From Tetradesmus obliquus (Eukaryota > Chlorophyta > Chlorophyceae > Sphaeropleales > Scenedesmaceae), in contig CP126200.1 of NCBI GenBank assembly GCA_030272155.1, positions 4,030,001-4,094,000 of the forward strand: DNA of 64,000 nucleotides, in the 5' to 3' direction. This document shows, piece after piece, positions 7,141-42,210 of this stretch. Position 1 is the stretch's first letter; the number at the start of each line of letters is the position of its first letter. The position numbers and the translations under genes were made by a program. Below the pieces are notes generated by a model. It did not search any database. It was not told where the DNA came from and was given only the letters and a program-made list of their open reading frames with translations.

Positions 7141-7154
7141 CTGCAGGTGAGCAG

Positions 7155-7342
<188 letters not shown>

Positions 7343-7344
<2 letters not shown>

Positions 7345-9902: not shown

Positions 9903-10329
9903 TGCGGCGGTGAAAATGGGGGCGCAGGTGGTTCGCCGTGTAGCCTTCACAGTGTGTAACAGCCTCGGGGTTTTATGGGGGCGCTCTGCCTGCCATGCTG
10001 CCTGCCAGGCACCAGGTGCCGGGCTGGTGCTTTCCCGTGAGCAGCACATACTATGTTTTGAGTCAAACCGCGGGGCAATATACTTCAGCAGCAGTTGTGG
10101 TTCTACAATTGTGGAGCAGACATTACTGCATGACATGCTGCAGATAGGGGGCATGCTGCTGCATACTGTGAAAGATAAAGGGCACACCGTGATGTGTGCC
10201 AGTGAGCTGCCGAACTGATATAGGTTGTAGTCGTATTTCAAAAGCATATGAACTCCAAAAAACGTGTTAAGATCACCATGGCCCTTTGCCAACGTATCCA
10301 CTGATCGTCCAACGTAACATGGGAAGGTT

Positions 10330-10622
10330 ACGGACAGCAGCACAACAACCCCAGCTACTACAGCCACAGGGCCACCCTGGCTGGTGAGGTGACGCTGCTG
10401 CAGCGCCAGATTCATACGAGCATCATGCCAGCAGACCTATGGGACTGGTACATGGTGCGTGCAGGCCGCAGCTAGGCCAGCAGCAGCTGGAAGACGTACG
10501 TGGAAAACTACAGCAAAGCCTTTGGCACCCGCCTGCCCTACCTCCGCGGGGCTGGTTGCTCGCTGCTTGTTGTGGTTTTCAAGCCATCCCTGCTGAACTG
10601 GTGGGTGTGAAATAACCTGATA
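10330..10622 (+). pseudogene. Remnant coding segment, left arm only in part
   Basis: A plus-strand frame reads SYYSHRATLAGEVTLLQRQ, then DLWDWYMVRAGRS, a TAG, and on the same frame WKTYVENYSKAFGTRLPYL before the next stop. The composition is protein-like. About 165 bases of it (from the Ile-Met before DLWDW onward) are missing from the right arm, where the flanks are joined directly. I do not recognise the family. The in-frame stop marks it as decayed. Confidence 0.4.
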
Positions 10623-11049
10623 TTCTTTCATGAGCATGCTGGGGGCGCACGGGGTCCTGTTCTGTGCGTGGTGGATCCACCGGATCCACCGGATCCACCG
10701 GATCCATCCGGATGTATTACCTGCAGCCCTGCAGGCAGGTTGGTTGCGTTTTGCAACCAGTGTCCCCTAGTATTTCCTGCAGACAGCTTGTTTGCGTTTG
10801 TAACCAGTGCTGCTGGCAGGAGCTTGTTATTGGTTGCTGCAGCAGCCAACATGATCGATCATGTCTGCCTTCATGAAGGCAGTGGTGTGCCGGTTGCAGC
10901 TGAGTTTGGTGTGAACAGAGCCTGGCTCTAGGCCAGCTGTCAGGGGGCAGCTTGGTCCATCTGTGTTTGTACATTTTCTGTGCTTGTGCTCCCACACCTG
11001 ACCGTGCTGCTTGTGTACCCTCTTTTTGCCGTCCACCGCCGCTCGCAGG

Positions 11050-12385
11050 CTGCCGACCAAGGTCAACCAGGCCCTTGTCGGCAGCCTAGCGACTTCGTTG
11101 ATGCAAATTTGAGCTCGATCAGTAAGATTGAACGTCTCAATAACACTTTGAACCACTCCCTTGCGAAAATGCCAACCAGAATCCGGACGCTGTCGCTTGT
11201 GAAACATCTCCTTGTGACACAGACGATTCGCGGGTTTGCGCTTGACTGACAGCCGGACGCTTGCCTAGGACGCTTCGACCAGGTTGCATGACACATATGC
11301 AATTTTATCGTTGCCCCTTGCCCCGTGTTGCTGATCGCGTGTGCTGATGAAAACTAGGGGTTGCTTGCGCTCATGTTACGCAAGCCTGTACTGCGTCTGT
11401 CCATGTGTCTTCACTTGATCAGATGCCTTCAAGCAAATTGTGGAGTCGGTGACTCCTTATCCCGGACGATAGTCTCCTTGCTTGTGTGCGAGGCGCATGG
11501 CTTGACATGGCTACAGTCGCCCGGGGTGGCAGATGAAGCCCTCCGGCCACCACTGGCACCAGCAGAAGTAGAGGCAGCAGCAGCAGTAGCAACAGAAGCG
11601 AGTGCAGTGGCAGCAGCAGACTGTGGTGATGAAGTCCCAGCAGCAGCAGACTGCAATGACGAACTGCCTGCTGCCCTGATGCTGGTGACAGCAGTGTGCC
11701 TGTCGATTCCATTGTGAGCCAGCAGACAGTTGCTGTGTTGCCTGCAGGCTCGGCAGCTCTCAACAGCAACACCAGCGCAGCAACAGCGCCACTAACACAG
11801 CCCAGCACCAGCCCTGGTTCCTAGCAACTAGAGGAAGCAGCAGGGCTCGCAGGGGCCTTTGCAGCTGCCAGCCAGTCCTGCAGTGACCGCAACACTCTGA
11901 GGCGCGGCTCAGGCCTGCTGGTGCTGCTGCGCAATGGCTGGCGTGGCAAAGCAAGGCCGCTCAATGGCAGCGTGCTGGTCAGGGGTGTGGCGTACAACTG
12001 CTACAGCATTGTGCAGGTGCAGCTGATGAGCCATGAGGGTGTGCTGCTGCACAGGGGCCAGCAGCAGATTGTGAGCGTGCGTGTAGCTGCAGAGTTCCTG
12101 GGACCTGGCAGCAGCGATGCAGTGGGCGCTTGGAGCGAGCAGACCTTCATCGTGGCTGTGGCCAGAGGACACCCTGCAGGGTGCTGCTGCACTGCCAGGC
12201 ACCCCAGCCTGTTGGCAAGAAGTTCAGGCTACAGCTCAGCCTGCACGCACGCCCATGAGGCCCTGTCTGGCTGGACGCAAGCTGTCCTGTTGTACCTGTT
12301 GAGGCCTTGCAGGAAGGCAGTATGGTGTGTGCCTGCTGCGTCGGTATGCAAGCGCTCAGGGTTGTTGCACAGGCCCCTGATGTGA
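11050..12385 (+). pseudogene. Left copy of an unidentified gene, interrupted by a foreign segment and a nonsense codon
   Basis: The frame enters as LPTKVNQALVGSL after a CGCTCGCAG acceptor, as in the right arm. At base 11090 it runs into a 465-base segment that is absent from the right arm. Homology resumes at 11554 (LAPAEVEAAAAVATEA). The shared part later reads LLVLLRNGWRGKARPLNG and GVAYNCYSIVQVQLMSHEG. In this copy a CAG codon has become TAG at 11822-11824. The frame after GPGSSD (AVGAWSEQTFIVAVARG) is intact here, whereas the right copy has lost a base there. The function is unknown. Confidence 0.55.
11090..11553. repeat. 465-base segment duplicated in inverted orientation at 37788-38250
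   Basis: The sequence from GACTTCGTTGATGCAAATTTG to GCCCTCCGGCCACCA is repeated, with about 5-6% mismatches, as the reverse complement of 37788-38250. It occupies the place where the right arm holds 1.2 kb of different sequence (32345-33565). No terminal inverted repeats or target duplications are visible at its ends. It may be one end of a larger element or a gene-conversion patch. Confidence 0.85.
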
Positions 12386-13094
12386 TCCTGACTCGTTCAG
12401 GTGTTGCTGGTGATAGGGCATTGGCCACTGCATGCTGCTGTTGCTGCTAACGCATTCAAGAGTGTTGTTATCCAGTGCCTGCTGTGTGCTGCTTCCCTAT
12501 GACGCACCTGTACATAGCCCGTTCTGCAATCACTGTAAAATATTGCTGAATTGTGTTGCATTCTTTTGAGAGAACGCGCAGCTTCTCTGCGACGTCTTCC
12601 CACAGTGCTGGGTCATTGGTGGTCATTGGCGGTCCTCGCTGGAGCCTGAGAGTTGAGGTCAGCGCCATTTGAATATATCGCTATCTAAGGGAGACGCATG
12701 AGCGCACGCCACCTCTGGCAGCGCAGCCTGAGCTGCAAAGCCTCTAAACAACACTTCTGTGTCTGTGGCCCTGTGCAAGCTAGTGTGCAGCAAAACGGCC
12801 TAGACTTTTGTGTATCGATATAATACTCATAACTTGCAAGGCACGCATTACACGTCGTCATACAATGCTGTGCAACAGTTTTGGCAGGCCGCAGGCAGCC
12901 CGCTGTTGTCAACATACCAGCTACTCACTGCATGGGCGCAACAGCATTCAGCTTCAGCGCAGACCGTGTACAGTGCTCCAGCACTGCAGATCTCCTGAGC
13001 TTACCAAGGTAGTGTCTCCTCTCGTTCGCTGGTTCCTGCTCCTCGTGCTCTTCGTGCATCTAGATTGAGTCCCTATTGAACGAATAGCGCTGCC

Positions 13095-13162
13095 ATGCAG
13101 GTGTTGTCAGCAAAAGATGCAAGCAGTGACGGGGCCAGCAGCAGCAACAGCAGCAGCAGGGC

Positions 13163-13205
<43 letters not shown>

Positions 13206-16200
13206 TATCCCTTTTTCAACCGCAAGTTGGAATTGAAGCACCTGGCAGACCACTGCAGCGCTCCTCCAGATGCTATCAGCGTCATTGTAGGACCTCGCAG
13301 CACTGGCAAAACAGCGTTGTTGACTGAATTCATGAGCCAAAGGGGCTTGCTGGACAGCAGATGCTTCATCAATGCCAGGATTACGCCCATCAACACCCCC
13401 AGCCAACTGGCTACCGAACTGCTGGCGTCAGCTATACCCAAACTAGCACAGCAGTTGTTTCCAGATGTAAAAGGGCTCAAAGAGATAGTTAAGGCTTTGG
13501 CAGGTGCGATCAGTGAGTTGCAGGATAAGCAGAAGTTGGCAGATGGCAGTGAGTTCACCTTGAGTGGCAAGGTGTTCGCACCCATCTTGCAGGGCCTTGC
13601 GGGCGACACTCGGGAGACGCCCCCATTGGCAGCGGTGTGTGAAGCATACATAGCTCTGCTAGACGCCTGGTACAGGGCAAGGGCAGCTGGGAAGCTGCAA
13701 GATGACAGGCCCCCGGTGTTGGTGGTGGATGAGGCCAACGCACTGATGGCCTGGGGGGACCAGTACACGGTGGAGAGGCAAACTCTGCTGAAGTTTTTTG
13801 TTGCCATCAGTAAGGAGCAGCGGCGCAGCCATGTCATCCTAGCCACCTCTGAATACTCCTTTCAGACCTGGCTGAACAAAGGTGAGGCAACAGCGCGCCA
13901 TGGCCAAGACACTGATGGCAGCACTGTAGCAAGACTCGCCTTGCAGTAACTTTTCAATCGATCGCCAGAGCTACAGCCTGTTGGTTGGTCTAGGCGTGTT
14001 GGAAGTACTTCTAGTGGTTGTGATCAAGTGTTTTGGTTGGTCACATGCTGCCTATCAGCAAGCTAGCGTTAGTGTGAGTTAAGCTTGTGGCGACTCTCTT
14101 ATGCTGAGCAATGCATTCTGCTGGTTGCCATGTCATGCAAGCGAACTTGCAGTGCAGATCTCAGTGGCTGCCAATATGCGCTTGTTGCTCTTGCCATGCA
14201 GAGATTGGACCAGGCTTCTTTCAGAGCTTCGTGGTTGGCGACTTCCCTGCACAGGAGGCCAGGGGGTTTCTTGATGAGTGTCTGCAGCAGGTTGGCAAGC
14301 CAGGAGTGGCTGATGCCGATTGGGAGGCTGTGCAGAAGGTGGGTCACTGATGCGTGTTACTTGTGTATTGTCACACACAATGACACTTCAGCGGAAGCAT
14401 TGCTCAGTCAGCATTCTACAACCACATGACATCCCTCTCATATCATCATCTTGCGGCGTCATGTACACGCCGATGACACAATTACAGATGATGTTGTCAG
14501 TCAACCCACAGCTGGCAGCGGATATAGCTAGCCAGTTGCACATGCAGTTTGCTTGTTGTGCCAAGGTGGTGAGGCTAAAACGGTGTTGGCAGCTCTGACT
14601 GAGCACTACTGCACCGGCAAGTCTGGTAGTGTCGGTACGTGCACAGGGCAAGGATGGCATGCACAACAACAACTAAGTATGCGGCAGCGTAGCTGCGCCA
14701 GCAGTGAAGCGGGCATTGTCAACTGTATTGTGCACTGTCGACCCCATCCTGCAGGTTTGCGGTGGCAATGCTGGAGCTTTGGTAAGGGCCGCTGGCTCGT
14801 ACAATAGCCTTGGTGGCTGGAAAGCAGGCAAGTGTGGAGTGGTGGAGTGGTACATGGTGTTACCTCCAGTGCCTTTAAATGTACACTAGTGTTCTGCATG
14901 TGTGGGTTGACTGGGTTCATTGAATAAGACAATGTTGAGGACTGATTGAATGTGCTTAGTAGCACTGCCCAAGTTCCACGACATCTATCAGCGGCATGTG
15001 TGCAAGCAACACTGCATTTGTGCAAGCAAAGTTGGCGGACATAGTAGGCATGTTCATAACTCGCACAACCTTGTTGTTGGCCACCTTGCCTGATGATCAC
15101 TTGGTTTGCAACTGCGAGTGTTGCTCAATTGAGCATGTCATACAGACAGCATCGTACTCAATGATGATCATGTTGGCTGGGATCTGAGGGAAAAGAGTGG
15201 GTGGCAAGGACCTAGCATATGGTATGTGGAAATTTGCCATGGTGTGCTGATAATGGTAAGGATGGTAGCTGCTCTACTACTATGTGCTGAGGGTGATGTT
15301 TGTTGTGCATTGCAACTTGCAGCCCTATCCCAGGTGGCGAAGGATGTGTGGAGAACCATGGATCCTCGATACTGGCCAGCAGCTGACGCTGCCTACACTG
15401 CAACAGACTACGCCACAGCAGTCGATGCCATCTTGAAGAGCCAGTACAAGGCGGTTAATGGTGTGGATCTGATAGCAGTGCTAGGCCAGCAATCGCTAGA
15501 AGCAATGGTGCAGGCCAATCTGCTTGCTTTGCGGCCCTACTCCCATTGGGCTGCAGACATTGATGCTGCAGCCTTTGGCCCTAAGCAGCGCTTCACTGTG
15601 GTGACCGCACCAACTCCCCTCCACCTGTACCTCATGGAGGACGAGCGCAGCACGCTGCTAGCACCCCTGGGCCTCGAGACGCAGCAGGTGGGTGTGACAT
15701 TGTGGCTGGTGAATGGCTAGAATCGAATTGATGCAAGTATGGCCACAAACTGGAATTTGCTGAATTTTGTCACGGCTCGGCAGCAGCATCTGCTGCCAAG
15801 TTGACAAAGTCTCTAGTCAAGCTTTGAAAAGAAGCTGAATCCAACCTTTCCGCAAGACATGCATGAACAGCCGGTTCATAGCTACATAAACATGTAAGTT
15901 ATTTCTTCCTGCAACATATGTTGGTGCAAGGTCTGGGGTTCTGTTGTGTGCAGGTGGCAATGCGTTTTCAATCCTTATGTGCACAGCCACTATTGTTGTA
16001 TAGAACGGTAGTGCTATTGGTTGGGAGTTGATGTCTTGTGTATTCATGATTGAAGCGATTGTATGTCCACTGCTATGCAGGTGCCACTCACGAGCAACAC
16101 TGACCACTGCGCAGACCCCAGCAGGCCACCTAGCCCCACATCAGTTGCAGTGAGGGCAGTTGCTGATGAGATGGCAGCGGTGCAGCGCAAGATTGAAGAT

Positions 16201-16392
16201 GTTGAAGGGCAGATCAAGCAGCTCAGTGATGAGATCACTGGTGTCAGGAGGGTAAAGGGCGAGGGTTGGCATGATGAATTGGCATTCTTGCAGCAGGAGA
16301 AGCAGCAGCTCGTGGAGGAGAAGCGGCAACTGCGTGAAAAAGAAAGGTTGCTGCAGGAAGAGAAGTTGCTGCTGATGAAGCGGGAGGAATAG
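13095..16392 (+). CDS. AAA+/STAND-like P-loop ATPase with C-terminal coiled coil (left copy)
   Basis: Five exons join in phase (13095-13881, 14202-14338, 14755-14827, 15323-15687, 16081-16392) to give about 557 residues. After a Ser-rich leader (residues 10-35) comes a P-loop ATPase of the archaeal-ATPase/STAND type. Walker A is GPRSTGKTALL, Walker B is PPVLVVDEANAL, and a sensor-1-like ILATSEYSF follows. A GGNAGAL sensor-2-like motif is in exon 3. Exon 4 is a mixed helical region (VWRTMDPRYWPAADAAY...). Exon 5 ends in a charged heptad coiled coil (MAAVQRKIEDVEGQIKQL...). Intron 3 uses a GC donor (CAG|GCAAGT). The start could instead be a splice acceptor, because ATGCAG precedes VLSAKD. The class often acts in nucleic-acid remodelling or mobile-element biology. 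The specific role here is unknown. Confidence 0.82.
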
Positions 16393-17401
16393 CCGACTGG
16401 GCTTTTGTTTGCCTTGAACTGCTGGGAGGGAAGGCACATCTTGCATCTTTATTGCATCAGCAGCAACACCTGCAGCAGCCGCAGCAAGGTGGCTGCAAGA
16501 CCTTCTGCTGAGCAGCACATCAGCTGTGACGGTGCTCATGAGCATGTTGTGGGATATGTAACACACGGGTTGTCCTAGCAGGCGCTGATGCTATGGATTG
16601 AATGGGTAACATGGTGATGATGACTGGTGATCCCAGCAGCAGTTTGAGTACCGCGAAGCCTCCTGTCACATCTGTGTTGTGTGCTGCAGCAACTGCACCT
16701 GCTGATGCATGTTACAGTTGTGTCCTTTAGACACATGTTTTGCATACATACTTGCTTGTTTTCTGCTAGGTTGCAGTGCTGATGCATGTTACATACCACA
16801 CTGTGTTGAACTGCTACACGCAGGCCCCCTCGACTCTCTGCACCCAGCTACAACAAGTGCAACTGCTGGTGCATGTAACACTTCATCATTATCATCATCA
16901 TCACTATCATCATCATCATCATCATCATCATTATGTTGTTTATAAACCTGTGAACACCAGTGAGGGCCCAATGCTGCTACCACATTGAACAGCAGCAGCA
17001 ACAGTAGCAGCAGCAGCAAGCGCACACTTGCGATCTTGCCAGGCTGCAACGCATACCTTATCTAGAGGAGTTGTAGAAGGGCCCCTAACGGCCCAGCAAT
17101 GCACGGCATGGTTGCCCGCAACGCGTCAGCACTAGTGGAGGTCTGGCAGAGCTCGTGTGGCCATCAAGTCAGGAGCACATCGCAGCAATAGTTAAATGGC
17201 ATTGAGATCAAGCAGCTTGCCTGGAACTCAGGGTGCGCCGCTGCTGCTTCTACGTCGGAACAACCCTAAGGCAGGCAGCTGATAGTATGCCTGCACGCAA
17301 GCAGAAATTGCAAGCCACATACATTCTAATGTGCCTCAAAAGACCAACTAAGCACTCTAAGAAGCCGCTGCTCTCTCTGTTGAACCCCTGCTGCTGCTGC
17401 A

Positions 17402-18395
17402 GTGTGGCAACAGCTCACCACAGACGCAGATGACAGCCAGGATGTAGCACATGCCGCGCAGAAAGCCACAGCATGCTTCTTTGCAGTTGCAGCAGCCCTT
17501 GATGTCTTCGTGAGCCCCTGCCCAACCAGCAGCTGCTGCCAGTGTGCCTGGAGTGCGACAGCCAGGCCCAGACGGCCTTGCGCAGGCTCAAGGATCGCGC
17601 AAAGGCCACAGGAGCAGACCTGTTTGAACTGCTTGTGTCAGGCAGCGTGGCAAGCTGGGAGGCCTTCATCATCAGCAGCTTTCAGGCAGGCTACAACGCA
17701 GACATCCAAGAGGCAACCGTGCAGCACCAGGTGGGCATCATGGGTGACTGCATGGCATGTGACAGCAAACATCAGCAAAGTTCATACTGCTGTTGACAAA
17801 ATGCGGCACTGGCAGTTGTCTTGGTGGGTGATGCAAGCAGCTCCTTGCATGGTGCGGGCTAATCCTGCTAACAACCAACGTGCCTCTGCTGCTTCTGTCA
17901 CTGCAGTTGGTTCACGAGTTCAGGCTACTGCTGCTGCTGGGCCGCACGCTCTGCGACAGGCAGCCAGGTGTCAGCATGACCTACAGCACCGTGCAGCCGA
18001 CGGCAGCATCAGCGAGCGCCAGGTGGACCTCATATTCCCTGCATCAGAGCGGACATGTTGCGGCTCATGCAGGCATGGTGGGACCGCAAGGTGGGTGCCA
18101 GCGGGGCTGCTGCTGCTTCCTAGGGGCCTTGCAGGAGACTGAGTGGTACATAGTGTGCCGCATGGGGCCTTGCAAGCCAGCCAACCTAGTCACCCTGGTT
18201 CCCTGCAAGAAGCTGTGCCACTTCACCTTCTCTGTTGCTGTGACTGCACTCGCAGGGGGGCAAGCCCAGCAAGCGGCAGGCTGCAGCTGCCAGGGGGGCA
18301 GCAGAGCACAAGGCGATGCCCACGCGCTTCTACACCAACCTCCTGCTGCTGCTGTTCTGGCAGGCACAGCTCATGGTGGCCGTCACACAGCTCAA
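17402..18395 (+). pseudogene. Left copy of a decayed multi-exon gene, family unidentified
   Basis: Recognisable exon pieces follow a CTGCTGCAG acceptor: VWQQLTTDADDSQDVAHAA..., then in a shifted frame CLECDSQAQTALRRLKDRAK...SWEAFIISSFQAGYNADIQE, then LVHEFRLLLLLGRTLCDRQP, CIRADMLRLMQAWWDRK and KPSKRQAAAARGAAEHKAM...FWQAQLMVAVTQL before a GTGAGT donor. Frameshifts after ALDVF and before CIRADML are shared with the right arm, so they predate the duplication or mark unrecognised splicing. The Trp codon in VASWEAF (17656-17658) is intact here but is a stop in the right arm. A third, more diverged copy of the last exon lies at 23232-23093. Confidence 0.5.
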
Positions 18396-18542
18396 GTGAG
18401 TGCCCATGACTTGCTAAGGTAGCACAGTGTGCTGTGTCACGTGTTTCGGTGGCCATACCTGAGCTGTCAGGGCAGCTGCACAGCCCAGCAAGCACCCATG
18501 CAGGACTTGACCTTGCAGCATTTAGTGGTTGCAGTGCTGCTG

Positions 18543-18763
18543 CTGTGTCACAGTTACCCTCTATATATAGAGCAACATGTGTAAAAAGGGGGCAATTGTG
18601 ACACACAGCACTTGCTGCAGTTGCTGGCAGCGGCACAGGGCACAACATATGCACTTAGGCATCCCAGCATTTATCAAGTGGGTTGCACTGCAGCTGGTGG
18701 TTGTCACAGTTACCCACTATATATAGAGCAGCATGTGTAAAAGGGGGGCAATTGTGACACATA
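18543..18763 (-). repeat. Two MITE-like units in tandem (left arm)
   Basis: Palindromic elements at 18546-18603 and 18704-18763 have ends GTCACAGTTACCC and GGGGGCAATTGTGAC around CTATATATAG and an ACATGTGTAAAA segment. They are separated by about 100 bases of shared monomer sequence (GCAGTTGCTGGCAGCGGCAC...GGTTGCACTGCAGCTGGTGG). The orientation is opposite to the central array. The corresponding place in the right arm has three units. Confidence 0.85.
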
Positions 18764-18904
18764 GCACCTGCTGCAGTTGCTGGCAGTTGTACAGGGCAGC
18801 TGGTCGCTGGCAAGTTCTGCAGCTGGATGCAGACAACCAGTGTGTATGGTACACCCAAACAGCGCATGGGCTGCTGACCACATGCAGCGCTGCCTGCTTT
18901 TGTG

Positions 18905-19284
18905 AACATGTCTTGCAGCACCCATATGCTTGCCAGCAAGGCAGCTGGAGCCCCCAACTGGTTTCACCCAGGCTCCTTGACATCTGGTGCCCAGTACAGC
19001 AACACCAGCCCTGCGATGCTGGCCACACAGGCTGCGTACGGCACCCTGGCTGCTGCACGGCACCTATACACTGGCGGCAGGCCTGCGGAGTGCTGCCGGC
19101 TGCGCTGGGGCGACACTGGAGTGCTTGCAATATTGCTATGGCATGACGGGTAACATGTTATTACTGGAGTGCTTGGTGCTGGAAACGTCCCCGTGTAGGC
19201 CCTGGGGCTGGCGGGGATGGTACGGGACTTTCAGGAGGCGCCTGGCACGGGCTCTTACATGATCAACTACCACTGCAAGGTGAG
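18905..19284 (+). pseudogene. Left copy of a decayed gene, nonsense codon at 19196
   Basis: The frame from about 18905 reads SCSTHMLASKAAGAPNWFH...QAAYGTLAAARHLYTGG...WGDTGVLAILLWHDG. A second piece reads GAGNVPV, then TAG, then [20 protein letters not shown], ending at a GTGAGC donor. The TAG at 19196-19198 replaces the TGG (Trp) found in the right arm at 24645-24643. The family is not recognised. It lies directly inside the MITE pair and may be part of the same transcription unit as the 17.4-18.4 kb gene. Confidence 0.45.
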
Positions 19285-19425
19285 CTGCGTGTTGTACATT
19301 GTGTGGATTCACCGCGTGGGTTTTGGTGGGGTTTTCTGGCCACAGCTCCAGGCTGCTGTTGATTGCGTCCTGCATGTGCCGTTCAGCACGAGCCCCAAAT
19401 TGGAGCTCGTGCTGGTGGTGCTTGT

Positions 19426-19614
19426 AACAGTTGTGTCATGTAGACACATGTTCTTCTTCTATATATAGTACAGAACTGTTACGCTCAGGGGCCCCTGGGC
19501 TTCTTTAAGCTCTCAGAACCCCAAGCCCACACACAGCTACATCAGCTGGTGCTTGTAGCAGTTTTGTCCTATAGACTCATGTTGTTCTATATACAGCGCA
19601 CAGCTGTTACACGA
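19426..19614 (+). mobile_element. Two palindromic elements of a second MITE-like type
   Basis: Elements at about 19427-19485 and 19552-19612 have ends related to GTAACAGTTxTGT and ACAGxACTGTTAC/ACAGCTGTTAC around a TCTATATA core. They resemble the 21-kb family in layout (short inverted ends, a central CTATATA, an ACATG segment) but have AACAGTT instead of CACAGTT ends. Mirror copies lie at 24236-24420 in the right arm. A degenerate copy occurs near 22910-22945 and another near 16710-16760. Confidence 0.6.
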
Positions 19615-20254
19615 GGCCGTCGTTACAATCTGCACCTAGCCACACAACACGCTGGCATGCATGGCTGTCAAGCACTGCTGGGTTGCAAAACAGTTGCGTC
19701 CGCAGCAGCAATGGCTTCAACAACCAGCTGCAAAAACACCAGTGACACCAGCACACACCCAGCCTACAGTGCTGGTTGCATAGCCTCGCCAGCTCCACCA
19801 CAGCCATGACCTCCTTGTGCACTTCCTCAGCACTGCTTGCCGACAGCATCAGGTGCAGCAGTGCGCGCCCCCTGCAAGGTGCGCGGCGCAGCACCAGCTT
19901 GCCCTTGAAGAAGCCAGTTCCCACCTCTGTCCCGTCGTGGCTGGGTTTGAATACCTCCCGCGGGTTCCTGATACTATTGAGCAAAGGGGTGTCTTGCAGC
20001 TTAGGGGCACAACCCACCAGAAAGTCTAGGCTGCTCTCAGGCACCACCATGCTGCTGAAGGCTGTCACCCGATATGGGCCCAGTCTGGCATGCACCATGC
20101 CACACCCATCAAAGCCAAAGTACAGCTCTGCAAATCGGCAGTTCCTGTTGGAGAGCTCTAGCTTGAAGCTGCGGCGCTGCAGTGTAGTGGCGAGGTCCCT
20201 TGCATGGTCTGCCTCTGCCAAGTCAACAATTGCGCGGGCCACGTGGTGTGCCAT
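19607..20254 (-). CDS. Hypothetical protein, left copy (C-terminal frame altered)
   Basis: The frame opens with MAHHVARAIVDLAEADHA and stays protein-like to about residue 155 (ELYFGFDGCGMVHARLGPY, SMVVPESSLDFLVGCAPKL, EVHKEVMAVVELA). Near base 19787 this copy lacks one A that the right arm has. From there the frame runs into a Cys/Trp-rich tail of about 60 residues that looks like translated noncoding DNA. In the right arm's local sequence a stop follows ten codons later, so the original protein was probably about 165 residues long. The family is unknown. It is transcribed against the other arm genes, towards the outer border. Confidence 0.5.
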   Translation of the reverse strand: MAHHVARAIVDLAEADHARDLATTLQRRSFKLELSNRNCRFAELYFGFDGCGMVHARLGPYRVTAFSSMVVPESSLDFLVGCAPKLQDTPLLNSIRNPREVFKPSHDGTEVGTGFFKGKLVLRRAPCRGRALLHLMLSASSAEEVHKEVMAVVELARLCNQHCRLGVCWCHWCFCSWLLKPLLLRTQLFCNPAVLDSHACQRVVWLGADCNDGLV

Positions 20255-20524
20255 GTTTGTTGATGACCTAGCTGTCAGTGAGGCCTCAAGTGGCTTGCAG
20301 GCGCCGAGCAGCAGCGGCCAGTGGTGTTCCTGTGCATGGCTGATACGTCACTGCACTGGTATCACACTGGTTTGCAAGTCAGGTAGCCAGCAGCAGCGGC
20401 CAGTGGTGTGCCTGTTTTGTGTATGAAACAGCATCAGCAGCAGGGCAGCCTTGGCACATGGGTTTTTATCAGGCCTGTAATTGTATCCAGCCTGCACACC
20501 ACACATTCAGGGCGTGTCCATGCT

Positions 20525-23232: not shown

Positions 23233-23588
23233 AAGTGTAGAAACAGCAGCAGAGAGGGTGAGGTTGCAAGGCAAGGGGCAGAGACAGCCACGGGCAGGGG
23301 CAGCAGGGTGACCAAGGGGGCATGGACACGCCCTGAATGTGTGGTGTGCAGGCTGGATACAATTACAGGCCTGATAGAAACCCATGTGCCAAGGCTGCCC
23401 TGCTGCTGATGCTGTTTCATACACAAAACAGGCACACCACTGGCCGCTGCTGCTGGCTACCTGACTTGCAAACCAGTGTGATACCAGTGCAGTGACGTAT
23501 CAGCCATGCACAGGAACACCACTGGCCGCTGCTGCTCGGCGCCTGCAAGCCACTTGAGGCGTCACTGACAGCTAGGTCATCAACAAAC

Positions 23589-24078
23589 ATGGCACACCAC
23601 GTGGCCCGCGCAATTGTTGACTTGGCAGAGGCGGACCATGCAAGGGACCTCGCCACTACACTGCAGCGCCGCAGCTTCAAGCTAGAGCTCTCCAACAGGA
23701 ACTGCCGATTTGCAGAGCTGTACTTTGGCTTTGATGGGTGTGGCATGGTGCATGCCAGACTGGGCCCATATGGGGTGACAGCCTTCAGCAGCATGGTGGT
23801 GCCTGAGAGCAGCCTAGACTTTCTGGTGGGTTGTGCCCCTAAGCTGCAAGACACCCCTTTGCTCAATAGTATCAGGACCCGCGGGAGGTATTCAAACCCA
23901 GCCACGACGGGACAGAGGTGGGAACTGGCTTCTTCAAGGGCAAGCTGGTGCTGCGCCGCGCACCTTGCAGGGAGCGCGCACTGCTGCACCTGATGCTGTC
24001 GGCAAGCAGTGCTGAGGAAGTGCACAAGGAGGTCATGGCTGTGGTGGAGCTGGCGAAGGCTATGCAACCAGCACTGTA
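23589..24078 (+). pseudogene. Right copy of the MAHHVARAIV protein, frameshifted
   Basis: This is the mirror of the 20254-19607 gene. The first ~97 codons match the left copy. A one-base deletion near 23876 (CAGGACCC against CAGGAACCC) then shifts the frame, and translation ends early at 23993. Past the lesion the original frame can still be followed in the DNA to MAVVELA and a TAG at 24076-24078. That TAG is the likely authentic stop and has been lost from the left copy. Each copy therefore carries a different single-base defect. Confidence 0.6.
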
Positions 24079-24397
24079 GGCTGGGTGTGTGCTGGTGTCA
24101 CTGGTGTTTTTGCGGCTGGTTGTTGAAGCCATTGCTGCTGCGGACGCAACTGTTTTGCGACCCAGCAGTGCTTGACAGCCATGCATGACAGCGTGTTGTG
24201 TGGCTAGGTGCAGATTGTAACGACGGCCTCGTGTAACAGCTGTGCGCTGTATATAGAACAACATGAGTCTATAGGACAAAACTGCTACAAGCACCAGCTG
24301 ATGTAGCTGTGTGTGGGCTTGGGGTTCTGAGAGCTTAGAGAAGCCCAGGGGCCCCTGAGCGTAACAGTTCTGTACTATATATAGAAGAGGAACATGT

Positions 24398-24945
24398 GTT
24401 TACATGACAACTGTTACAAGCACCACCAGCACGAGCTCCAATATGGGGCTCGTGCTGAACGGCACATGCAGGACGCAATCAACAGCAGCCTGGAGCTGTG
24501 GCCAGAAAACCCCACCAAAACCCACGCTGTGAATCCACACAATGTACAACACGCAGCTCACCTTGCAGTGGTATTTGATCATGTAAGAGCCCGTGCCAGG
24601 CGCCTCCTGAAAGTCCCGTACCATCCCCGCCAGCTTCAGGGCCCACACGGGGACGTTTCCAGCACCAAGCACTCCAGTAATAATATGTTACCCGTCATGC
24701 CATACCAATATTGCAAGCACTCCAGTGTCGCCCCAGCGCAGCCGGCAGCACTCTGCAGGCCTGCCGCCAGTGTATAGGTGCCGTGCAGCAGCCAGGGTGC
24801 CGCACGCAGCCTGTGTGGCCAGCATCGCAGGGCTGGTGTTGCTGTACTGGGCACCAGATGTCAAGGAGCCTGGGTGAAACCAGTTGGGGGCTCCAGCTGC
24901 CTTGCTGGCAAGCATATGGGTGCTGCAAGACATGTTCACAAAAGC
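24398..24945 (-). pseudogene. Right copy of the WFHPGSL / GTGSYMIKYHCK gene
   Basis: This is the mirror of 18905-19284. The second piece is open here: [19 protein letters not shown]... to YHCK before a GTGAGC donor, with TGG (24645-24643) where the left arm has TAG. The first piece (SKAAGAPNWFHPGSLTSG...) is also open. Exon joining between the two is unclear because phases do not close with consensus sites. The family is not recognised. Confidence 0.4.
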
Positions 24946-25080
24946 AGGCAGCGCTGCATGTGGTCAGCAGCCCATGCGCTGTTTGGGTGTACCATACACA
25001 CTGGTTGTCTGCATCCAGCTGCAGAACTTGCCAGCGACCAGCTGCCCTGTACAACTGCCAGCAACTGCAGCAGGTGCTAT

Positions 25081-25453
25081 GTGTCACAATTGCCCCCCTT
25101 TTACACATGCTGCTCTATATATAGTGGGTAACTGTGACAACCACCAGCTGCAGTGCAACCCACTTGATAAATGCTGGGATGCCTAAGTGCATATGTTGTG
25201 CCCTGTGCCGCTGCCAGCAACTGCAGCAAGTGCTGTGTGTCACAATTGCCCCCTTTTTACACATGTTGCTCTATATATAGAGGGTAACTGTGACAACCAC
25301 CAGCTGCAGTGCAACCCACTTGATAAATGCTGGGATGCCTAAGTGCATATGTTGTGCCCTGTGCCGCTGCCAGCAACTGCAGCAGGTGCTGTATGTCACA
25401 ATTGCCCCCTTTTTACACATGTTGCTCTATATATAGAGGGTAACTGTGACACA
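25081..25453 (+). repeat. Three MITE-like units in tandem (right arm)
   Basis: Palindromes at 25081-25138, 25238-25295 and 25395-25453 have a period of about 157 bases. The left arm has only two at the matching place. The extra unit is nearly identical to its neighbours, so it arose by tandem duplication after the arms separated. Confidence 0.85.
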
Positions 25454-25599
25454 GCAGCAGCACTGCAACCACTGAATGCTGCAAGGTCAAGTCCTGCATG
25501 GGTGCTTGCTGGGCTGTGCAGCTGCCCTGACAGCTCAGGTATGGCCACCGAAACACGTGACACAGCACACTGTGCTACCTTAGCAAGTCATGGGCACTC

Positions 25600-26595
25600 A
25601 CTTGAGCTGTGTGACGGCCACCATGAGCTGTGCCTGCCAGAACAGCAGCAGCAGGAGGTTGGTGTAGAAGCGCGTGGGCATCGCCTTGTGCTCTGCTGCC
25701 CCCCTGGCAGCTGCAGCCTGCCGCTTGCTGGGCTTGCCCCCCTGCGAGTGCAGTCACAGCAACAGAGAAGGTGAAGTGGCACAGCTTCTTGCAGGGAACC
25801 AGGGTGACTAGGTTGGCTGGCTTGCAAGGCCCCATGCGGCACACTATGTACCACTCAGTCTCCTGCAAGGCCCCTAGGAAGCAGCAGCAGCCCCGCTGGC
25901 ACCCACCTTGCGGTCCCACCATGCCTGCATGAGCCGCAACATGTCCGCTCTGATGCAGGGAATATGAGGTCCACCTGGCGCTCGCTGATGCTGCCGTCGG
26001 CTGCACGGTGCTGTAGGTCATGCTGACACCTGGCTGCCTGTCGCAGAGCGTGCGGCCCAGCAGCAGCAGTAGCCTGAACTCGTGAACCAACTGCAGTGAC
26101 AGAAGCAGCAGAGGCACGTTGGTTGTTAGCAGGATTAGCCCGCACCATGCAAGGAGCTGCTTGCATCACCCACCAAGACAACTGCCAGTGCCGCATTTTG
26201 TCAACAGCAGTATGAACTTTGCTGATGTTTGCTGTCACATGCCATGCAGTCACCCATGATGCCCACCTGGTGCTGCACGGTTGCCTCTTGGATGTCTGCG
26301 TTGTAGCCTGCCTGAAAGCTGCTGATGATGAAGGCCTCTCAGCTTGCCACGCTGCCTGACACAAGCAGTTCAAACAGGTCTGCTCCTGTGGCCTTTGCGC
26401 GATCCTTGAGCCTGCGCAAGGCCGTCTGGGCCTGGCTGTCGCACTCCAGGCACACTGGCAGCAGCTGCTGGTTGGGCAGGGGCTCACGAAGACATCCAGG
26501 GCTGCTGCAACTGCAAAGAAGCATGCTGTGGCTTTCTGCGCGGCATGTGCTACATCCTGGCTGTCATCTGCGTCTGTGGTGAGCTGTTGCCACAC
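25600..26595 (-). pseudogene. Right copy of the decayed multi-exon gene, with a private stop codon
   Basis: This is the mirror of 17402-18395 with the same exon pieces (VWQQLTTDADD..., CLECDSQAQTALRRLK..., LVHEFRLLLLLGRTLC, QAWWDRK, FWQAQLMVAVTQL). The Trp of VASWEAF is TGA here (26341-26339), an inactivating change not present in the left arm. The two older frameshifts are shared with the left copy. Confidence 0.5.
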
Positions 26596-27613
26596 TGCAG
26601 CAGCAGCAGGGGTTCAACAGAGAGAGCAGCGGCTTCTTAGAGTGCTTAGTTGGTCTTTTGAGGCACATTAGAATGTATGTGGCTTGCAATTTCTGCTTGC
26701 GTGCAGGCATACTATCAGCTGCCTGCCTTAGGGTTGTTCCGACGTAGAAGCAGCAGCGGCGCACCCTGAGTTCCAGGCAAGCTGCTTGATCTCAATGCCA
26801 TTTAACTATTGCTGCGATGTGCTCCTGACTTGATGGCCACACGAGCTCTGCCAGACCTCCACTAGTGCTGACGCGTTGCGGGCAACCATGCCGTGCATTG
26901 CTGGGCCGTTAGGGGCCCTTCTACAACTCCTCTAGATAAGGTATGCGTTGCAGCCTGGCAAGATCGCAAGTGTGCGCTTGCTGCTGCTGCTACTGTTGCT
27001 GCTGCTGCTCAATGTGGTAGCAGCATTGGGCCCTCACTGGTGTTCACAGGTTTATAAACAACATAATGATGATGATGATGATGATAGTGATGATGATGAT
27101 AATAGTGATGATGCTAATGATGAAGTGTTACATGCACCAGCAGTTGCACTTGTTGTAGCTGGGTGCAGAGAGTCGAGGGGGCCTGCGTGTAGCAGTTCAA
27201 CACAGTGTGGTATGTAACATGCATCAGCACTGCAACCTAGCAGAAAACAAGCAAGTATGTATACAAAACATGTGTCTAAAGGACACAACTGTAACATGCA
27301 TCAGCAGGTGCAGTTGCTGCAGCACACAACACAGATGTGACAGGAGGCTTCGCGGTACTCAAACTGCTGCTGGGATCACCAGTCATCATCACCATGTTAC
27401 CCATTCAAGCCATAGCATCAGCGCCTGCTAGGACAACCCGTGTGTTACATATCCCACAACATGCTCATGAGCACCGTCACAGCTGATGTGCTGCTCAGCA
27501 GAAGGTCTTGCAGCCACCTTGCTGCGGCTGCTGCAGGTGTTGCTGCTGATGCAATAAAGATGCAAGATGTGCCTTCCCTCCCAGCAGTTCAAGGCAAACA
27601 AAAGCCCAGTCGG

Positions 27614-30600
27614 CTATTCCTCCCGCTTCATCAGCAGCAACTCCTTTTCCTGCAGCCGCCCTTTTTTATCACGCAGTTGCCACTCCTTTTCCACGAGCTG
27701 CTGCTTCTCCTGCTGCAAGAATGCCAATTCATCATGCCAACCCTCGCCCTTTACCCTCCTGACACCAGTGATCTCATCACTGAGCTGCTTGATCTGCCCT
27801 TCAACATCTTCAATCTTGCGCTGCACCGCTGCCATCTCATCAGCAACTGCCCTCACTGCAACTGATGTGGGGCTAGGTGGCCTGCTGGGGTCTGCGCAGT
27901 GGTCAGTGTTGCTCGTGAGTGGCACCTGCATAGCAGTGGACATACAATCGCTTCAATCATGAATACACAAGACATCAACTCCCAACCAATAGCACTACCG
28001 TTCTATACAACAATAGTGGCTGTGCACATAAGGATTGAAAACGCATTGCCACCTGCACACAACAGAACCCCAGACCTTGCACCAACATATGTTGCAGGAA
28101 GAAATAACTTACATGTTTATGTAGCTATGAACCGGCTGTTCATGCATGTCTTGCGGAAAGGTTGGATTCAGCTTCTTTTCAAAGCTTGACTAGAGACTTT
28201 GTCAACTTGGCAGCAGATGCTGCTGCCGAGCCGTGACAAAATTCAGCAAATTCCAGTTTGTGGCCATACTTGCATCAATTCGATTCTAGCCATTCACCAG
28301 CCACAATGTCACACCCACCTGCTGCGTCTCGAGGCCCAGGGGTGCTAGCAGCGTGCTGCGCTCGTCCTCCATGAGGTACAGGTGGAGGGGAGTTGGTGCG
28401 GTCACCACAGTGAAGCGCTGCTTAGGGCCAAAGGCTGCAGCATCAATGTCTGCAGCCCAATGGGAGTAGGGCCGCAAAGCAAGCAGATTGGCCTGCACCA
28501 TTGCTTCTAGCGATTGCTGGCCTAGCACTGCTATCAGATCCACACCATTAACCGCCTTGTACTGGCTCTTCAAGATGGCATGGACTGCTGTGGCGTAGTC
28601 TGTTGCAGTGTAGGCAGCGTCAGCTGCTGGCCAGTATCGAGGATCCATGGTTCTCCACACATCCTTCGCCACCTGGGATAGGGCTGCAAGTTGCAATGCA
28701 CAACAAACATCACCCTCAGCACATAGTAGTAGAGCAGCTACCATCCTTACCATTATCAGCACACCATGGCAAATCTCCACATACCGTACGCCAGGTCCTT
28801 GCCACTCACTCTTTCCCCTCAGATCCCAGCCAACATGATCATCATTGAGTGCGATGCTGTCTGTATGACACGCTCAATTGAGCAACACTCGCAGTTGCAA
28901 ACCAGGTGATCATCAGGCAAGGTGGTCAACAACAAGGCCGTGCCAGTTATGAATATGCCTACTATGTCTGCCAACTTTGCTTGCACAAATGCAGTGTTGC
29001 TTGCACACATGCAGCTGATAGATGTCGTGGAATTTGGGCAGTGCTACTAAGCACATTCAATCAGTCCTCAACATTGTCTTTTTCAATGAACCCAGTCAAC
29101 CCACACATGCTGAACACTAGTGTACATTTAAGGCATTGGAGGTAACACCATGTACCACTCCACCACTCCACACTTGCCTGCTTTCCAGCCACCAAGGCTA
29201 TTGTACGAGCCAGCGGCCCTTACCAAAGCTCCAGCATTGCCACCGCAAACCTGCAGGATGGGGTCGACAGTGCACAATACAGTTGACAATGCCCGCTTCA
29301 CTGCTGGCGCAGCTACGCTGCCGCATACTTAGTTGTTGTTGTACATGCCATCCTTGCCCTGTGCACGTACCGACACTACCAGACTTGCCGGTGCAGTAGT
29401 GCTCAGTCAGAGCTGCCAACACCGTTTTAGCCTCACCACCTTGGCACAACAAGCAAACTGCATGTGCAACTGGCTAGCTATATCCGCTGCCAGCTGTGGG
29501 TTGACTGACAACATCATCTGTGATTGTGTCATCGGCGTGTACATGACGCCGCAAGATGATGATATGAGAGGGATGTCATGTGGTCGTAGAATGCTGACTG
29601 AGCAATGCTTCCGCTGAAGTGTCATTGTGTGTGACAATACACAAGTAACACGCATCAGTGACCCACCTTCTGCACAGCCTCCCAATCGGCATCAACCACT
29701 CCTGGCTTGCCAACCTGCTGCAGACACTCATCAAGAAATCCCCTGGCCTCCTGTGCAGGGAAGTCGCCAACCACGAAGCTCTGAAAGAAGCCTGGTCCAA
29801 TCTCTGCATGGCAAGAGCAACAAGCGCATATTGGCAGCCACTGAGATCTGCACTGCAAGTTCGCTTGCATGACATGGCAACCAGCAGAATGCATTGCTCA
29901 GCATAAGAGAGTCGCCACAAGCTCAACTCACACAAGTTACTACAAGGCGAGTCTTGCTACAGTGCTGCCATCGGTGCCTAAGAGGTTGCGTGTTGCTGCC
30001 TTACCTTTGCTCAGCCAGGTCAGAAAGGAGTATTCAGAGGTGGCTAGGATGACATGGCTGCGCCGCTGCTCCTTACTGATGGCAACAAAAAACTTCAGCA
30101 TAGTTTGCCTCTCCACCGTGTACTGGTCCCCCCAGGCCATCAGTGCGTTGGCCTCATCCACCACCAACACCGGGGGCCTGTCATCTTGCAGCTTCCCAGC
30201 TGCCCTTGCCTTGTACCAGGCGTCTAGCAGAGCTATGTATGCTTCACACACCGCTGCCAATGGGGGCGTCTCCCGAGTGTCGCCCGCAAGGCCCCGCAAG
30301 ATGGGTGCGAACACCTTGCCACTCAAGGTGAACTCACTGCCATCTGCCAACTTCTGCTTATCCTGCAACTCACTGATCGCACCTGCCAAAGCCTTAACTA
30401 TCTCTTTGAGCCCTTTTACATCTGGAAACAACTGCTGTGCTAGTTTGGGTATAGCTGACGCCAGCAGTTCGGTAGCCAGTTGGCTGGGGGTGTTGATGGG
30501 CGTAATCCTGGCATTGATGAAGCATCTGCTGTCCAGCAAGCCCCTTTGGCTCATGAAATATGTCAACAACGCTGTTTTGCCAGTGCTGCGAGGTCCTACA

Positions 30601-30680
30601 ATGACGCTGATAGCATCTGGAGGAGCGCTGCAGTGGTCTGCCAGGTGCTTCAATTCCACCTTGCGGTTGAAAAAGGGATA

Positions 30681-30729
<49 letters not shown>

Positions 30730-30797
30730 GCCCTGCTGCTGCTGTTGCTGCTGCTGGCCCCGTCACTGCTTGCATCTTTTGCTGACAACACCTGCAT
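27614..30797 (-). CDS. AAA+/STAND-like P-loop ATPase with C-terminal coiled coil (right copy)
   Basis: This is the mirror of 13095-16392. Exons 30797-30005, 29803-29667, 29250-29178, 28683-28319 and 27925-27614 join in phase to give about 559 residues. Walker A (GPRSTGKTALL), Walker B (VLVVDEANAL), GGNAGAL and the coiled coil are all kept, as is the GC-AG third intron. Differences from the left copy are two extra Ser codons, a few substitutions (for example EFMSQ to YFMSQ, AVDAI to AVHAI) and a cluster in the coiled-coil end. No stop or frameshift is present. It is the only arm gene that is open in both copies. Confidence 0.82.
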
Positions 30798-31632
30798 GGC
30801 AGCGCTATTCGTTCAATAGGGACTCAATCTAGATGCACGAAGAGCACGAGGAGCAGGAACCAGCGAACGAGAGGAGACACTACCTTGGTAAGCTCAGGAT
30901 ATCTGCAGCGCTGGAGCACTGTACACGGTCTGCGCTGAAGCTGAATGCTGTTGCGCCCATGCAGTGAGTAGCTGGTATGTTGACAACAGCGGGCTGCCTG
31001 CTGCCTGCCAAAACTGTTGCACAGCATTGTATGACGACGTGTAATGCGTGCCTTGCAAGTTATGACTATTATATCGTTACACAAAAGTCTAGGCCGTTTT
31101 GCTGCACACTAGCTTGCACAGGGCCACAGACACAGAAGTGTTGTTTAGAGGCTTTGCAGCTCAGGCTGCGCTGCCTGAGGTGGCGTGCGCTCATGCGTCT
31201 CCCTTAGATAGCGACTTTAGATATATTTAAATGGCGTTGACCTCAACTCTCAGGCTCCAGCGAGGACCACCAATGACCCAGCACTGTGGGAAGACGTCGC
31301 AGAGAAGCTGCGCGTTCTCTCAAAATAATGCAACACAATTCAGCAGTATATTTTACAGTGATTGCAGAACGGGCTATGTACAGGTGCGTCATAGGGAAGC
31401 AGCACTCAGCAGGCACTGGATAACAACACTCTTGAATGCGTTAGCAGCAACAGCAGCATGCAGTGGCCAATGCCCTATCACCAGCAACACCTGAACGAGT
31501 TAGGACAACATCAGGGGCCTGTGCAACAACGCTGAGCGCTTGCATACCGACGCAGCAGGCACACACCACACTGCCTTCCTGCAAGGCCTCAACAGGTACA
31601 ACAGGACAGCTTGTGTCCAGCCAGACAGGGCC

Positions 31633-32369
31633 TCATGGGCGTGCGTGCAGGCTCAGCTGTAGCTCCTGAACTTCTTGCCAACAGGCTGGGGTGCCTGGCA
31701 GTGCAGCAGCACCCTGCAGGGTGTCCTCTGGCCACAGCCGCGATGAAGGTCTGCTCGCTCCAAGCGCCCACTGATCGCTGCTGCCAGGCCCCAGGAACTC
31801 TGCAGCTACACGCCCGCTCACAATCTGCTGCTGGCCCCTGTGCAGCAGCACACCCTCATGGCTCATCAGCTGCACCTGCACAATGCTGTAGCAGTTGTAC
31901 GCCACACCCCTGACCAGCACGCTGCCATTGAGCGGCCTTGCTTTGCCACGCCAGCCATTGCGCAGCAGCACCAGCAGGCATGCGCCGCGCCTCAGAGTGT
32001 TGCTGTCACTGCAGGACTGGCTGGCAGCTGCAAAGGCCCCTGCGAGCCCTGCTGCTTCCTCTAGTTGCTGGGAACCAGGGCTGGTGCTGGGCTGTGTTAG
32101 TGGCGCTGTTGCTGCGCTGGTGTTGCTGTTGAGAGCTGCCGAGCCTGCAGGCAACACAGCAACTGTCTGCTGGCTCACAATGGAATCAACAGGCACACTG
32201 CTGTCACCAGCATCAGGGCAGCAGGCAGTTCGTCATTGCAGTCTGCTGCTGCTGGGACTTCATCACCACAGTCTGCTGCTGCCACTGCACTCGCTTCTGT
32301 TGCTACTGCTGCTGCTGCCTCTACCTCTGCTGGTGCCAGTGATGGCTGAGGTGCACTAGAAACAAACAA
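31633..32369 (-). pseudogene. Right copy of the NGWRGKARPLNG gene, 3' exons, frameshifted
   Basis: After a TTGTTTCTAG acceptor the sequence reads SAPQPSLAPAEVEAAAAVAT... and, in the next frame, VDSIVSQQTVAVLPAGSAAL...SPGSQQLEEAAGLAGAF...LLVLLRNGWRGKARPLNG...VQLMSHEG. CAG at 32070-32068 is intact where the left arm has TAG. A one-base deletion near 31773 (GATCAG against GATGCAG) then shifts the frame after GPGSSD. The family is unknown. The two copies carry complementary lesions. Confidence 0.5.
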
Positions 32370-32929
32370 ACAACCTCATACAACTCCTTCTGCACCATAG
32401 CACTTGCGCGCCATAGCCTATGGCGAGACGGTCTCGCCCCTGTAAGGGCGGCAAGTACATCAGTGACATCAGTGACATCAGTGGGGACGATGAAGGTGAG
32501 GCCATCTCTATTCCGTGTAAGGTAGACCACCCAAAACCTTACACGACCGTGCTAGGCAGCATGCTCATGTTGGTAGACTACTGCCTAGAAGGGTTGAAAG
32601 AGTATACTGTGTTGATAACGTAGCACGTTGAGGCGCTTTGCAGGCGCAGGGAGGCGGTGCCTGCGAAAGCTATTATTTTTAGTGTTGCGCCGTTTAACCT
32701 AACATAGTCTACTATTGAAAGTGCCCTCAGGCGGCGGAGACGGACCGCCAGGGCGCGAGCAGAATCCTTCCTCCGGCTTTCGCCGGCCGTATCTCAGAGT
32801 CCTGAGAAATTCTGCCCCGGTTCGGTTTCGAACTTGGTATGACCAGGTACCTTGCGATTCCAATTTACCACCAATGCCCGCAAGGGTATGGTGTCGAATG
32901 GGTTATATGAAATCTTTCTTTCTTTCTTT
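32345..32929 (+). other. Right-arm-only sequence ending in a (CTTT)n tail
   Basis: About 585 bases lie between the coding exon at 33609-32930 and the downstream exons of the same gene. The sequence holds GACATCAGT triplets near 32462, self-complementary stretches (GGCGGAGACGGACCGCC, CTCCGGCTTTCGCCGG), a GGTTCGGTTTCGAAC stretch, and ends ATATGAAATCTTTCTTTCTTTCTT. A 3' simple-sequence tail is typical of SINE/LINE insertions, but I found no flanking target duplication. It could equally be an intron of the minus-strand gene. Confidence 0.35.
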
Positions 32930-33609
32930 CTACCACTGCACCACGTATTCTTCGCCTCGCCAGGCACTAGAAGCGCCCATGGCCTGCGCAGCGCTCACTG
33001 CAGCTGCTGCTGCACCTGCTACGGCTGCAGCTGCTGCATGGTCTTCACCCCTGCCAGTTGCTGCTGCAACTGCTGCCGCTACTGCGGCCACGGCTGTTGC
33101 TGCGGCTAGAACTTCTTCGGAAGGGCATTGCCTTGCTGCAGGGTTGGAGCAGCCACTAGTGGCTGCAAGTGCTTGCTGCTTGATTAGTAATCGCTGCATC
33201 TGCTCCCAGCCGGCACACAGCAGGTCAGGAGCACACTGCAACAACACATGCCTACTGAGTGCCTCTGGCAGCCTGCCCCACAGCTGCTGGCTGCCCGCAT
33301 GCACTTGATGCACCAGCTGGGCCACGAGTTGTGGCGTATTGGATCCTATCAGGCCAACTTGCTGTAGGTCACATCTGTCTGCAGGAGCTGCCAGCCGACA
33401 GCCACTATGCACCAGTGGGCCAGCCTTGAGCTGCAGCATGCCTGCCAGGCTGCCCTGCTGTTGCACGGCGTCCACCAGGTGCTGCCAGACATATGGCGTG
33501 CACTTGTTGTACTGGTACACAGCTGCCAGCTTCTGAGCTGCTTTCGGGGCGGCTGCTTTGCTGCTGCTAGGCGCTAGGCTGCCGACAAGGGCCTGGTTGA
33601 CCTTGGTCG
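32930..33609 (-). CDS. Right-arm exon of an unidentified Ala-rich protein
   Basis: The minus-strand frame after a CGCTCGCAG acceptor reads LPTKVNQALVGSLAPSSSKA, then AAVYQYNKCTPYVWQHLVDA, LVHQVHAGSQQLWGRLPEAL and LLCAGWEQMQRLLIKQQALA, followed by a long Ala-rich segment and a TAG. The composition up to the Ala run is protein-like and contains helical Leu/Gln patterns. The left arm keeps only the first 13 or so codons before its foreign segment begins, so this is the only surviving copy. No family is recognised. Confidence 0.5.
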
Positions 33610-34520
33610 GCAGCCTGCGAGCGGCGGTGGACGGCAAAAAGAGGGTACACAAGCAGCACGGTCAGGTGTGGGAGCACAAGCACAGAAAATGTACAAACAC
33701 AAATGGACCAAGCTGCCCCCTGACAGCTGGCCTAGAGCCAGGCTCTGTTCACACCAAACTCAGCTGCAACCAGCACACCACTGCCTTCATGTTGGCTGCT
33801 GCAGCAACCAATAACAAGCTCCTGCCAGCAGCACTGGTTACAAACGCAAACAAGCTGTCTGCAGGAAATACTAGGGGACACTGGTTGCAAAACGCAACCA
33901 ACCTGCCTGCAGGGCTGCAGGTAATACATCCACCACGCACAGAACAGGACCCCGTGCGCCCCCAGCATGCTCATGACAGAATATCAGGTCATTTCATTTC
34001 TTCGCTCGTATGAATCTGGCGCTGCAGCAGCGTCACCTCACCAGCCAGGGTGCCCCTGTGGTTGTAGTAGCTGGGGTTGTTGTGCTGCTGCCCGTAACCT
34101 TCCCATGTTACGTTGGACGATCAGTGGATACGTTGGCAAAGGGCCATGGTGATCTTAACACGTTTTTTGGAGTTCATATGCTTTTGAAATACGACTACAA
34201 CCTATATCAGTTCGGCAGCTCACTGGCACACATCGCGGTATGCCCTTTATCTTTCACAGTATGCAGCAGCATGCCCCCTATCTGCAGCATGTCATGCAGT
34301 AAATGTCTGCTCCACAATTGTAGAACCACAACTGCTGCTGAAGTATATTGCCCCCTGGTTTGACTCAAAATATAGTATGTGCTGCCCACGGGAAAGCACC
34401 AGCCCGGCACCTGGTGCCTGGCAGGCAGCATGGCAGGCAGAGCGCCCCCACAAAACCCCGAGGCTGTTACACACTGTGAAGGCTACACGGCGAACCACCT
34501 CCGCCCCCATTTCAACCCAG

Positions 34521-42175: not shown

Positions 42176-42210
<35 letters not shown>

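Follow-up and report, generated by a model that had tools for sequence, protein, structure and literature searches.

Large palindromes with gene-converting arms are known from the human Y chromosome. Inverted duplications are also a product of microhomology-mediated break-induced replication and fork stalling and template switching (MMBIR/FoSTeS), as set out by Hastings et al. (2009, PMC2621351), whose account gives discontinuous inverted duplications with 2–5 bp of junction microhomology near pre-existing repeats. For viral replication genes, Koonin et al. (2006, PMC1594570) describe a UL9-like helicase fused with a primase in asfarviruses and mimiviruses. Here we analyse a 64,000-nucleotide stretch of the green alga Tetradesmus obliquus (Chlorophyceae, Sphaeropleales; the window, C10:4030001-4094000; C1 to C15 are contigs of the OEZ86 assembly), which contains two long inverted arms around a centre bearing a piece of a UL9-like helicase. 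We think it probable that this structure is a local inverted segmental duplication in a pile of decayed virus- or plasmid-like element copies, produced by template switching and followed by gene conversion. Genome-wide searches covered 104.66 Mb in 17 contigs, and a second T. obliquus assembly, OEZ85, was consulted via its predicted proteins.

The inverted duplication is confirmed. Self-BLAST aligns arm A (9911-20522, forward strand) with arm B (23321-34517, reverse strand) in a series of inverted matches, all with E = 0: 14072-18798 against 29933-25199 (98.6% identity), 11546-13952 against 32346-29934 (96.8%), 18524-20523 against 25320-23320 (98.5%) and 9914-10421 against 34512-34004 (97.6%). 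Comparison of the borders found them sharp at both ends of arm A and arm B alike, as an earlier inspection of the letters (the sequence-only reading) had claimed, and both arms stop at the same two points. The sequence-only reading was also right that the arms have diverged and carry private indels: 139 of 9,779 aligned bases are substituted (1.42%; 91 transitions and 48 transversions), and the alignment contains 17 indels and one replacement, in which A 11090-11553 stands opposite B 32347-33568. A 179-bp stretch kept in arm A (10422-10600, forward strand), C7 and C5 is lost from arm B, and the arm B counterpart (25043-25473) of a 156-bp minisatellite in arm A (18523-18798) holds one copy more. 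Genome searches with five arm pieces, from which 18521-18799 and 11101-11545 were excluded, found near-complete second copies in arm B only; elsewhere in the genome 14072-16960 has only short repeat matches, and there is no additional arm copy in the 30 kb on each side of the window.

In one respect the earlier picture of the arms changes. Read from its outer end, arm A matches arm B from 34517 to 33569, then 38249-37788, then arm B again from 32346 to 23321, after which it abuts a helicase fragment. The middle piece is a 464-bp patch (11090-11553, forward strand) that is not arm sequence at all; it corresponds to 37788-38249 on the reverse strand, outside the arms, from which it differs by 12 substitutions in 459 bases (2.6%). 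This second site is situated 3.3-3.7 kb past the outer border of arm B and is related to the patch in the same inverse sense as the arms are to each other. In a genome search that scored 40 of 45 candidates, the last ~340 bp of the patch turned up at these two places only, while the remainder is a dispersed repeat that is cut short in arm A. At the right-hand site the repeat is longer, beginning at or before 37700, and on the basis of this longer context 37.8-38.2 kb is the source and the patch in arm A the copy. What the patch displaced is still to be seen in arm B as a 1.2-kb stretch (32347-33568, reverse strand) holding the first half of a gene that is conserved in C5, in C7 and in the metagenomic protein P0044.

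That gene helps to give the duplication a direction. Residues 1-175 of P0044 match arm B at 33520-32963 and residues 223-455 match sequence common to both arms, such that arm A is without the first half. C5 and C7 keep arm B's sequence and order at the replaced place, and arm B is colinear with C5, C7 and P0044 at 33618-32983; because all three agree with arm B, arm A is the derived one there. In the OEZ85 gene model OEZ85_003918, arm exons are linked with one that has 98% identity to 23235-23092, and the exon order runs from arm B into the centre; this fits arm B together with the right part of the centre. In OEZ86_005632, three exon stretches are 100% identical to arm B, one of these equally so to arm A. 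At the other end, similarity between C2 and C7 across the helicase gene begins at C2:2574680 and the window match at 2574717, 37 bases later: the helicase gene is cut at the inner end of arm A. Taking these sequence comparisons together, we read arm B as the probable source and arm A as the copy.

The centre, which had been described as unique, is built of sequence with relatives elsewhere. The helicase fragment (20522-21299, reverse strand; UL9-like, Herpes_ori_bp, PF02399) is 98-99% identical to C2, has lost 1,169 bp of its interior compared with C2, and is joined to arm A only. It is followed by a 151-bp satellite in 10.1 copies (21297-22823), a relative of which flanks the C2 copy on either side, and then by a diverged relative of the arm at 18.2-18.5 kb (22962-23268, reverse strand). 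The entire latter stretch is 74% identical to C7 and 76% to C5, it is joined to arm exons in OEZ85_003918 too, and within it 23082-23268 is an 85% copy of the arm exon at 18216-18406. Genome-wide, PF02399 passes its cut-off at C2 and in the window only (3 matches among 6 candidates), and a helicase relative at C7 was added by protein similarity. The sequence-only reading was right that the arms enclose the replication-helicase remnant of a large element. Further element sequence is present to the left of arm A (5681-7442), where 5681-7182 is 98.4% identical to C2:2579598-2581100 and is followed by a 186-bp GT repeat (7159-7344) and then by satellite (7341-7442). Against C2, the two helicase pieces show 3 differences in 477 bases and 4 in 306, and the left fragment shows 23 in 1,502, so that in age they are broadly comparable with the arms.

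Exact microhomology at the junctions was read off the alignments, and random junctions in the window average 0.72 bp. Two base pairs are shared where arm B gives way to the patch, 3 bp (8 with one mismatch) where the patch returns to arm B, 2 bp where the arm meets the helicase, 3 bp where the helicase meets the satellite, and 7 bp at the internal deletion of the helicase. The four junctions without the deletion sum to 10 bp (P = 0.008) and all five to 17 bp (P = 0.0004). The first three belong to arm A; we infer that the helicase deletion and the helicase-satellite junction come from the same event. Satellite and element fragments are present at the locus, near the endpoints of the rearrangement.

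Differences between the arms are not evenly spread. Identical arm-to-arm runs of 892, 864, 514 and 510 bp occur, the longest of which has P = 0.0002 under uniform placement; when differences less than 20 bp apart are merged, the longest run has P = 0.0097 and the top four P = 0.00015. The patch lacks a partner in arm B and is more diverged from its source than the arms are from each other (2.6% against 1.42%, P = 0.046), but its divergence is compatible with that of the arms outside their four longest identical runs (1.99%, P = 0.39). The clustering of differences suggests later arm-to-arm gene conversion, and the patch comparison fits such conversion and a single age for patch and arms. Purifying selection was considered as the cause of the long identical runs and is unlikely, since the runs are mostly non-exon and a reading frame within the arms shows no sign of constraint. 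This frame encodes an ATPase_2 domain (PF01637; E = 1.6e-14 in arm A) at 13095-13949 on the forward strand and at 29940-30797 on the reverse strand in arm B. Between the two copies, 14 nonsynonymous and 2 synonymous differences are found among 283 codons. They are the only copies in the genome (2 matches among 23 candidates scored), and the sequence-only reading had correctly placed the same ATPase, along with decayed genes, in both arms.

Under the reading that we prefer, a broken or stalled replication fork would have copied arm B, then the patch from 38.2 kb, then arm B again by microhomology-primed template switching, laying down arm A in inverse orientation to arm B. Gene conversion would afterwards have passed sequence between the arms as their genes, free of constraint, decayed. 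The inverted structure itself has no evident function.

Several observations weigh against this account. Where C5 and C7 polarise the differences between the arms, 6 of 20 nucleotide differences (2,404 columns) fall on arm A, 13 on arm B and 1 is unclear, whereas of 14 ATPase residue differences 8 fall on arm A, 3 on arm B and 3 are unclear; the counts run opposite ways, so neither arm has a consistent excess of changes. Owing to the same disagreement, error-prone copying of arm A gave no signal. When differences within 50 bp are merged, the longest identical run is not unusual (P = 0.092), although the top four still give P = 0.015. The comparison of the patch with the arms outside their four longest identical runs drops tracts that were picked after looking, which raises the value for the arms. 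The microhomology evidence is modest, and the outer-left border of arm A has no known partner. Finally, the patch may have replaced the arm sequence later, in an event of its own.

Of the other explanations, the one that survives best is that replication of a folded-back broken end gave a palindrome around the centre, the outer end being interrupted later. The sequence-only reading had proposed such a palindrome, formed by break, fold and fusion at an element insertion. It came close, in that the inverted arms flank a short spacer and the centre holds element debris and satellite, but a plain fold-back leaves unexplained both the patch from 38.2 kb in arm A, for which template switching does account, and the joining of the helicase fragment to arm A only; we regard it as improbable. 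Still less probable is that one element inserted twice, independently and in opposite orientations. In its favour, parts of the arms belong to a dispersed element family, but the arms end at the same two points while no related locus that was read ends there (the border equivalents at C7 and C5 were not base-aligned), and there is no third copy of the ATPase frame. Nor is there a target-site duplication: the outer flanks (~62 bp each) share a single 6-mer, 37-59 bp from the borders.

We judge an assembly artefact or a joining of haplotypes to be very unlikely: the arms have indels of their own, arm A holds a chimeric patch, the centre consists of other sequence, and the OEZ85 gene model supports the link between arm B and the centre. 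Slightest of all is the chance that this is a large element with terminal inverted repeats of ~11 kb, an idea put forward in the sequence-only reading and attractive for the symmetric anatomy around a replication gene, which we reject given that long inverted arms occur at none of four related loci in the stretches read (C7 40 kb, C2 40 kb, C1 20 kb, C5 10 kb), that genome-wide DNA searches place the arm pieces at C5 (5.06-5.10 Mb) and C7 in one orientation, apart from a ~190-bp inverse repeat too short to count as an arm, and that no target-site duplication was seen at the outer borders.

The related loci also give a view of the family from which the arms descend. The copy at C7 (2075498-2098889, 23.4 kb) has in order relatives of the arm at 16.9-19.4 kb, the helicase, a primase-like gene, relatives of 10.3-12.3 kb, a RuvC-like resolvase, a PHD protein, and relatives of 16.9-17.8 kb again. 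The arm relatives at its two ends sit in direct repeats that are 1,743 bp long and 97.9% identical and that bound the copy; no target duplication was seen beside them by eye. The C5 locus (5.06-5.10 Mb) has the gene order of C7 minus the helicase-primase part, with a further piece at 5069838-5070228 and a weak one at 5059775-5060153, both on the same strand. The C2 copy contains the helicase, the primase-like gene and a further segment; the 8-kb copy spans C2:2574019-2582076 and is bounded on either side by the 151-bp satellite, inversely oriented. Single element pieces are found at C1, C5:2.32 Mb and C12:0.51 Mb, and a 389-bp stretch past the window end (74218-74587 in window coordinates) shows 71% similarity to C7. 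The gene order in the arms and that at C7 and C5 are circular permutations of each other, a pattern suggestive of a circular or head-to-tail form.

Fuller versions of the replication gene come from OEZ85, where the primase-helicase genes OEZ85_003903 and OEZ85_003910 encode proteins P0004 and P0012, at a locus where OEZ86 keeps only a fragment. P0004 matches PF02399 at 4.8e-22 and origin-binding proteins in the PDB at 4.8e-7. Ahead of the helicase domain lies an N-terminal region whose motifs we take to be primase-like; no Pfam primase match was found in P0004 or the selected frames scanned. Its fold model (mean predicted local distance difference test score 50.1) was too poor and was not used. 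OEZ85_003903, OEZ85_003910 and OEZ85_003918 are on contigs of 5,622,638 bases, apparently one and the same, and this locus may still hold fuller element copies.

The resolvase frame has no Pfam match. A relative at C6, sharing 44% identity with the C7 frame, matches phrog_159 at E = 1.4e-4, and the label RuvC-like also leans on motifs that are presumably those of that family. Its relatives number 26 genome matches, several being parts of one gene, on C6, C7, C8, C11, C13, C15 and others; at C6 and C7 the resolvase adjoins a related gene of no recognised kind, and some family members have long open frames. Among the 30 selected frames scanned there was no recognisable capsid, packaging or polymerase gene, and no genome-wide capsid search was made. 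In scans of viral contigs with one resolvase and one helicase relative, 0 of 1 stretch was confirmed in either case; five weak helicase matches of 21-24% identity came from phage records, and neither an Rfam match at the gathering score nor a tRNA by tRNA scan was found. Among the papers listed, titles and abstract openings held no description of the locus or of the element family.

The parent family looks virus- or plasmid-derived. Tentatively, the arms may be remnants of an undescribed family of this kind in the Scenedesmaceae, one that encodes a PHD protein besides a primase-like/UL9 helicase and a RuvC-like resolvase and that has a circular or head-to-tail stage; if so, the inverted duplication would be debris of element replication or integration. 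The family is the more novel part of the locus compared with the rearrangement and deserves a study of its own.

Elsewhere in the window, a 1,980-codon open frame (40754-46696) has protein kinase matches, the best of them near its end (PF00069), and tandem units of ~98-115 bp (62595-63478) each encode a short AFEQLKQAYN-LR-PEKL stretch, with in-frame stops, that we take to be J-domain-like.

The interest of the rearrangement is that none of source, copy and patch has been lost, leaving a readable record of a multi-template inverted duplication in a green alga. The patch, having no partner in the other arm, could serve to date the same event undisturbed by conversion, and the locus draws attention to a little-known family of elements whose replication genes are of viral type.

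The mechanism of the rearrangement is of a known kind. As in MMBIR/FoSTeS, arm A is inverted, discontinuous and drawn from several templates, with junctions of 2, 3, 2 and 3 bp and repeats nearby. Unlike the events in human copy-number change from which that model derives, this one is old, belongs to a green alga, lies within a decayed element and appears to have been reworked by gene conversion; the 7-bp junction at the helicase deletion also sets it apart. The human Y palindromes likewise have long inverted arms with perfectly identical tracts, but the arms described here are smaller and 1.4-2% diverged, their ATPase frame is without constraint, and their conversion is suggested by the clustering of differences only. 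P0004, with PF02399 behind a presumed primase-like N-terminal region, resembles the viral UL9-like helicases, whereas the copies at C2 (~8 kb) and C7 (~23 kb) differ from asfarviruses and mimiviruses in being decayed and in having no recognised capsid or polymerase gene within the selected open reading frames scanned.

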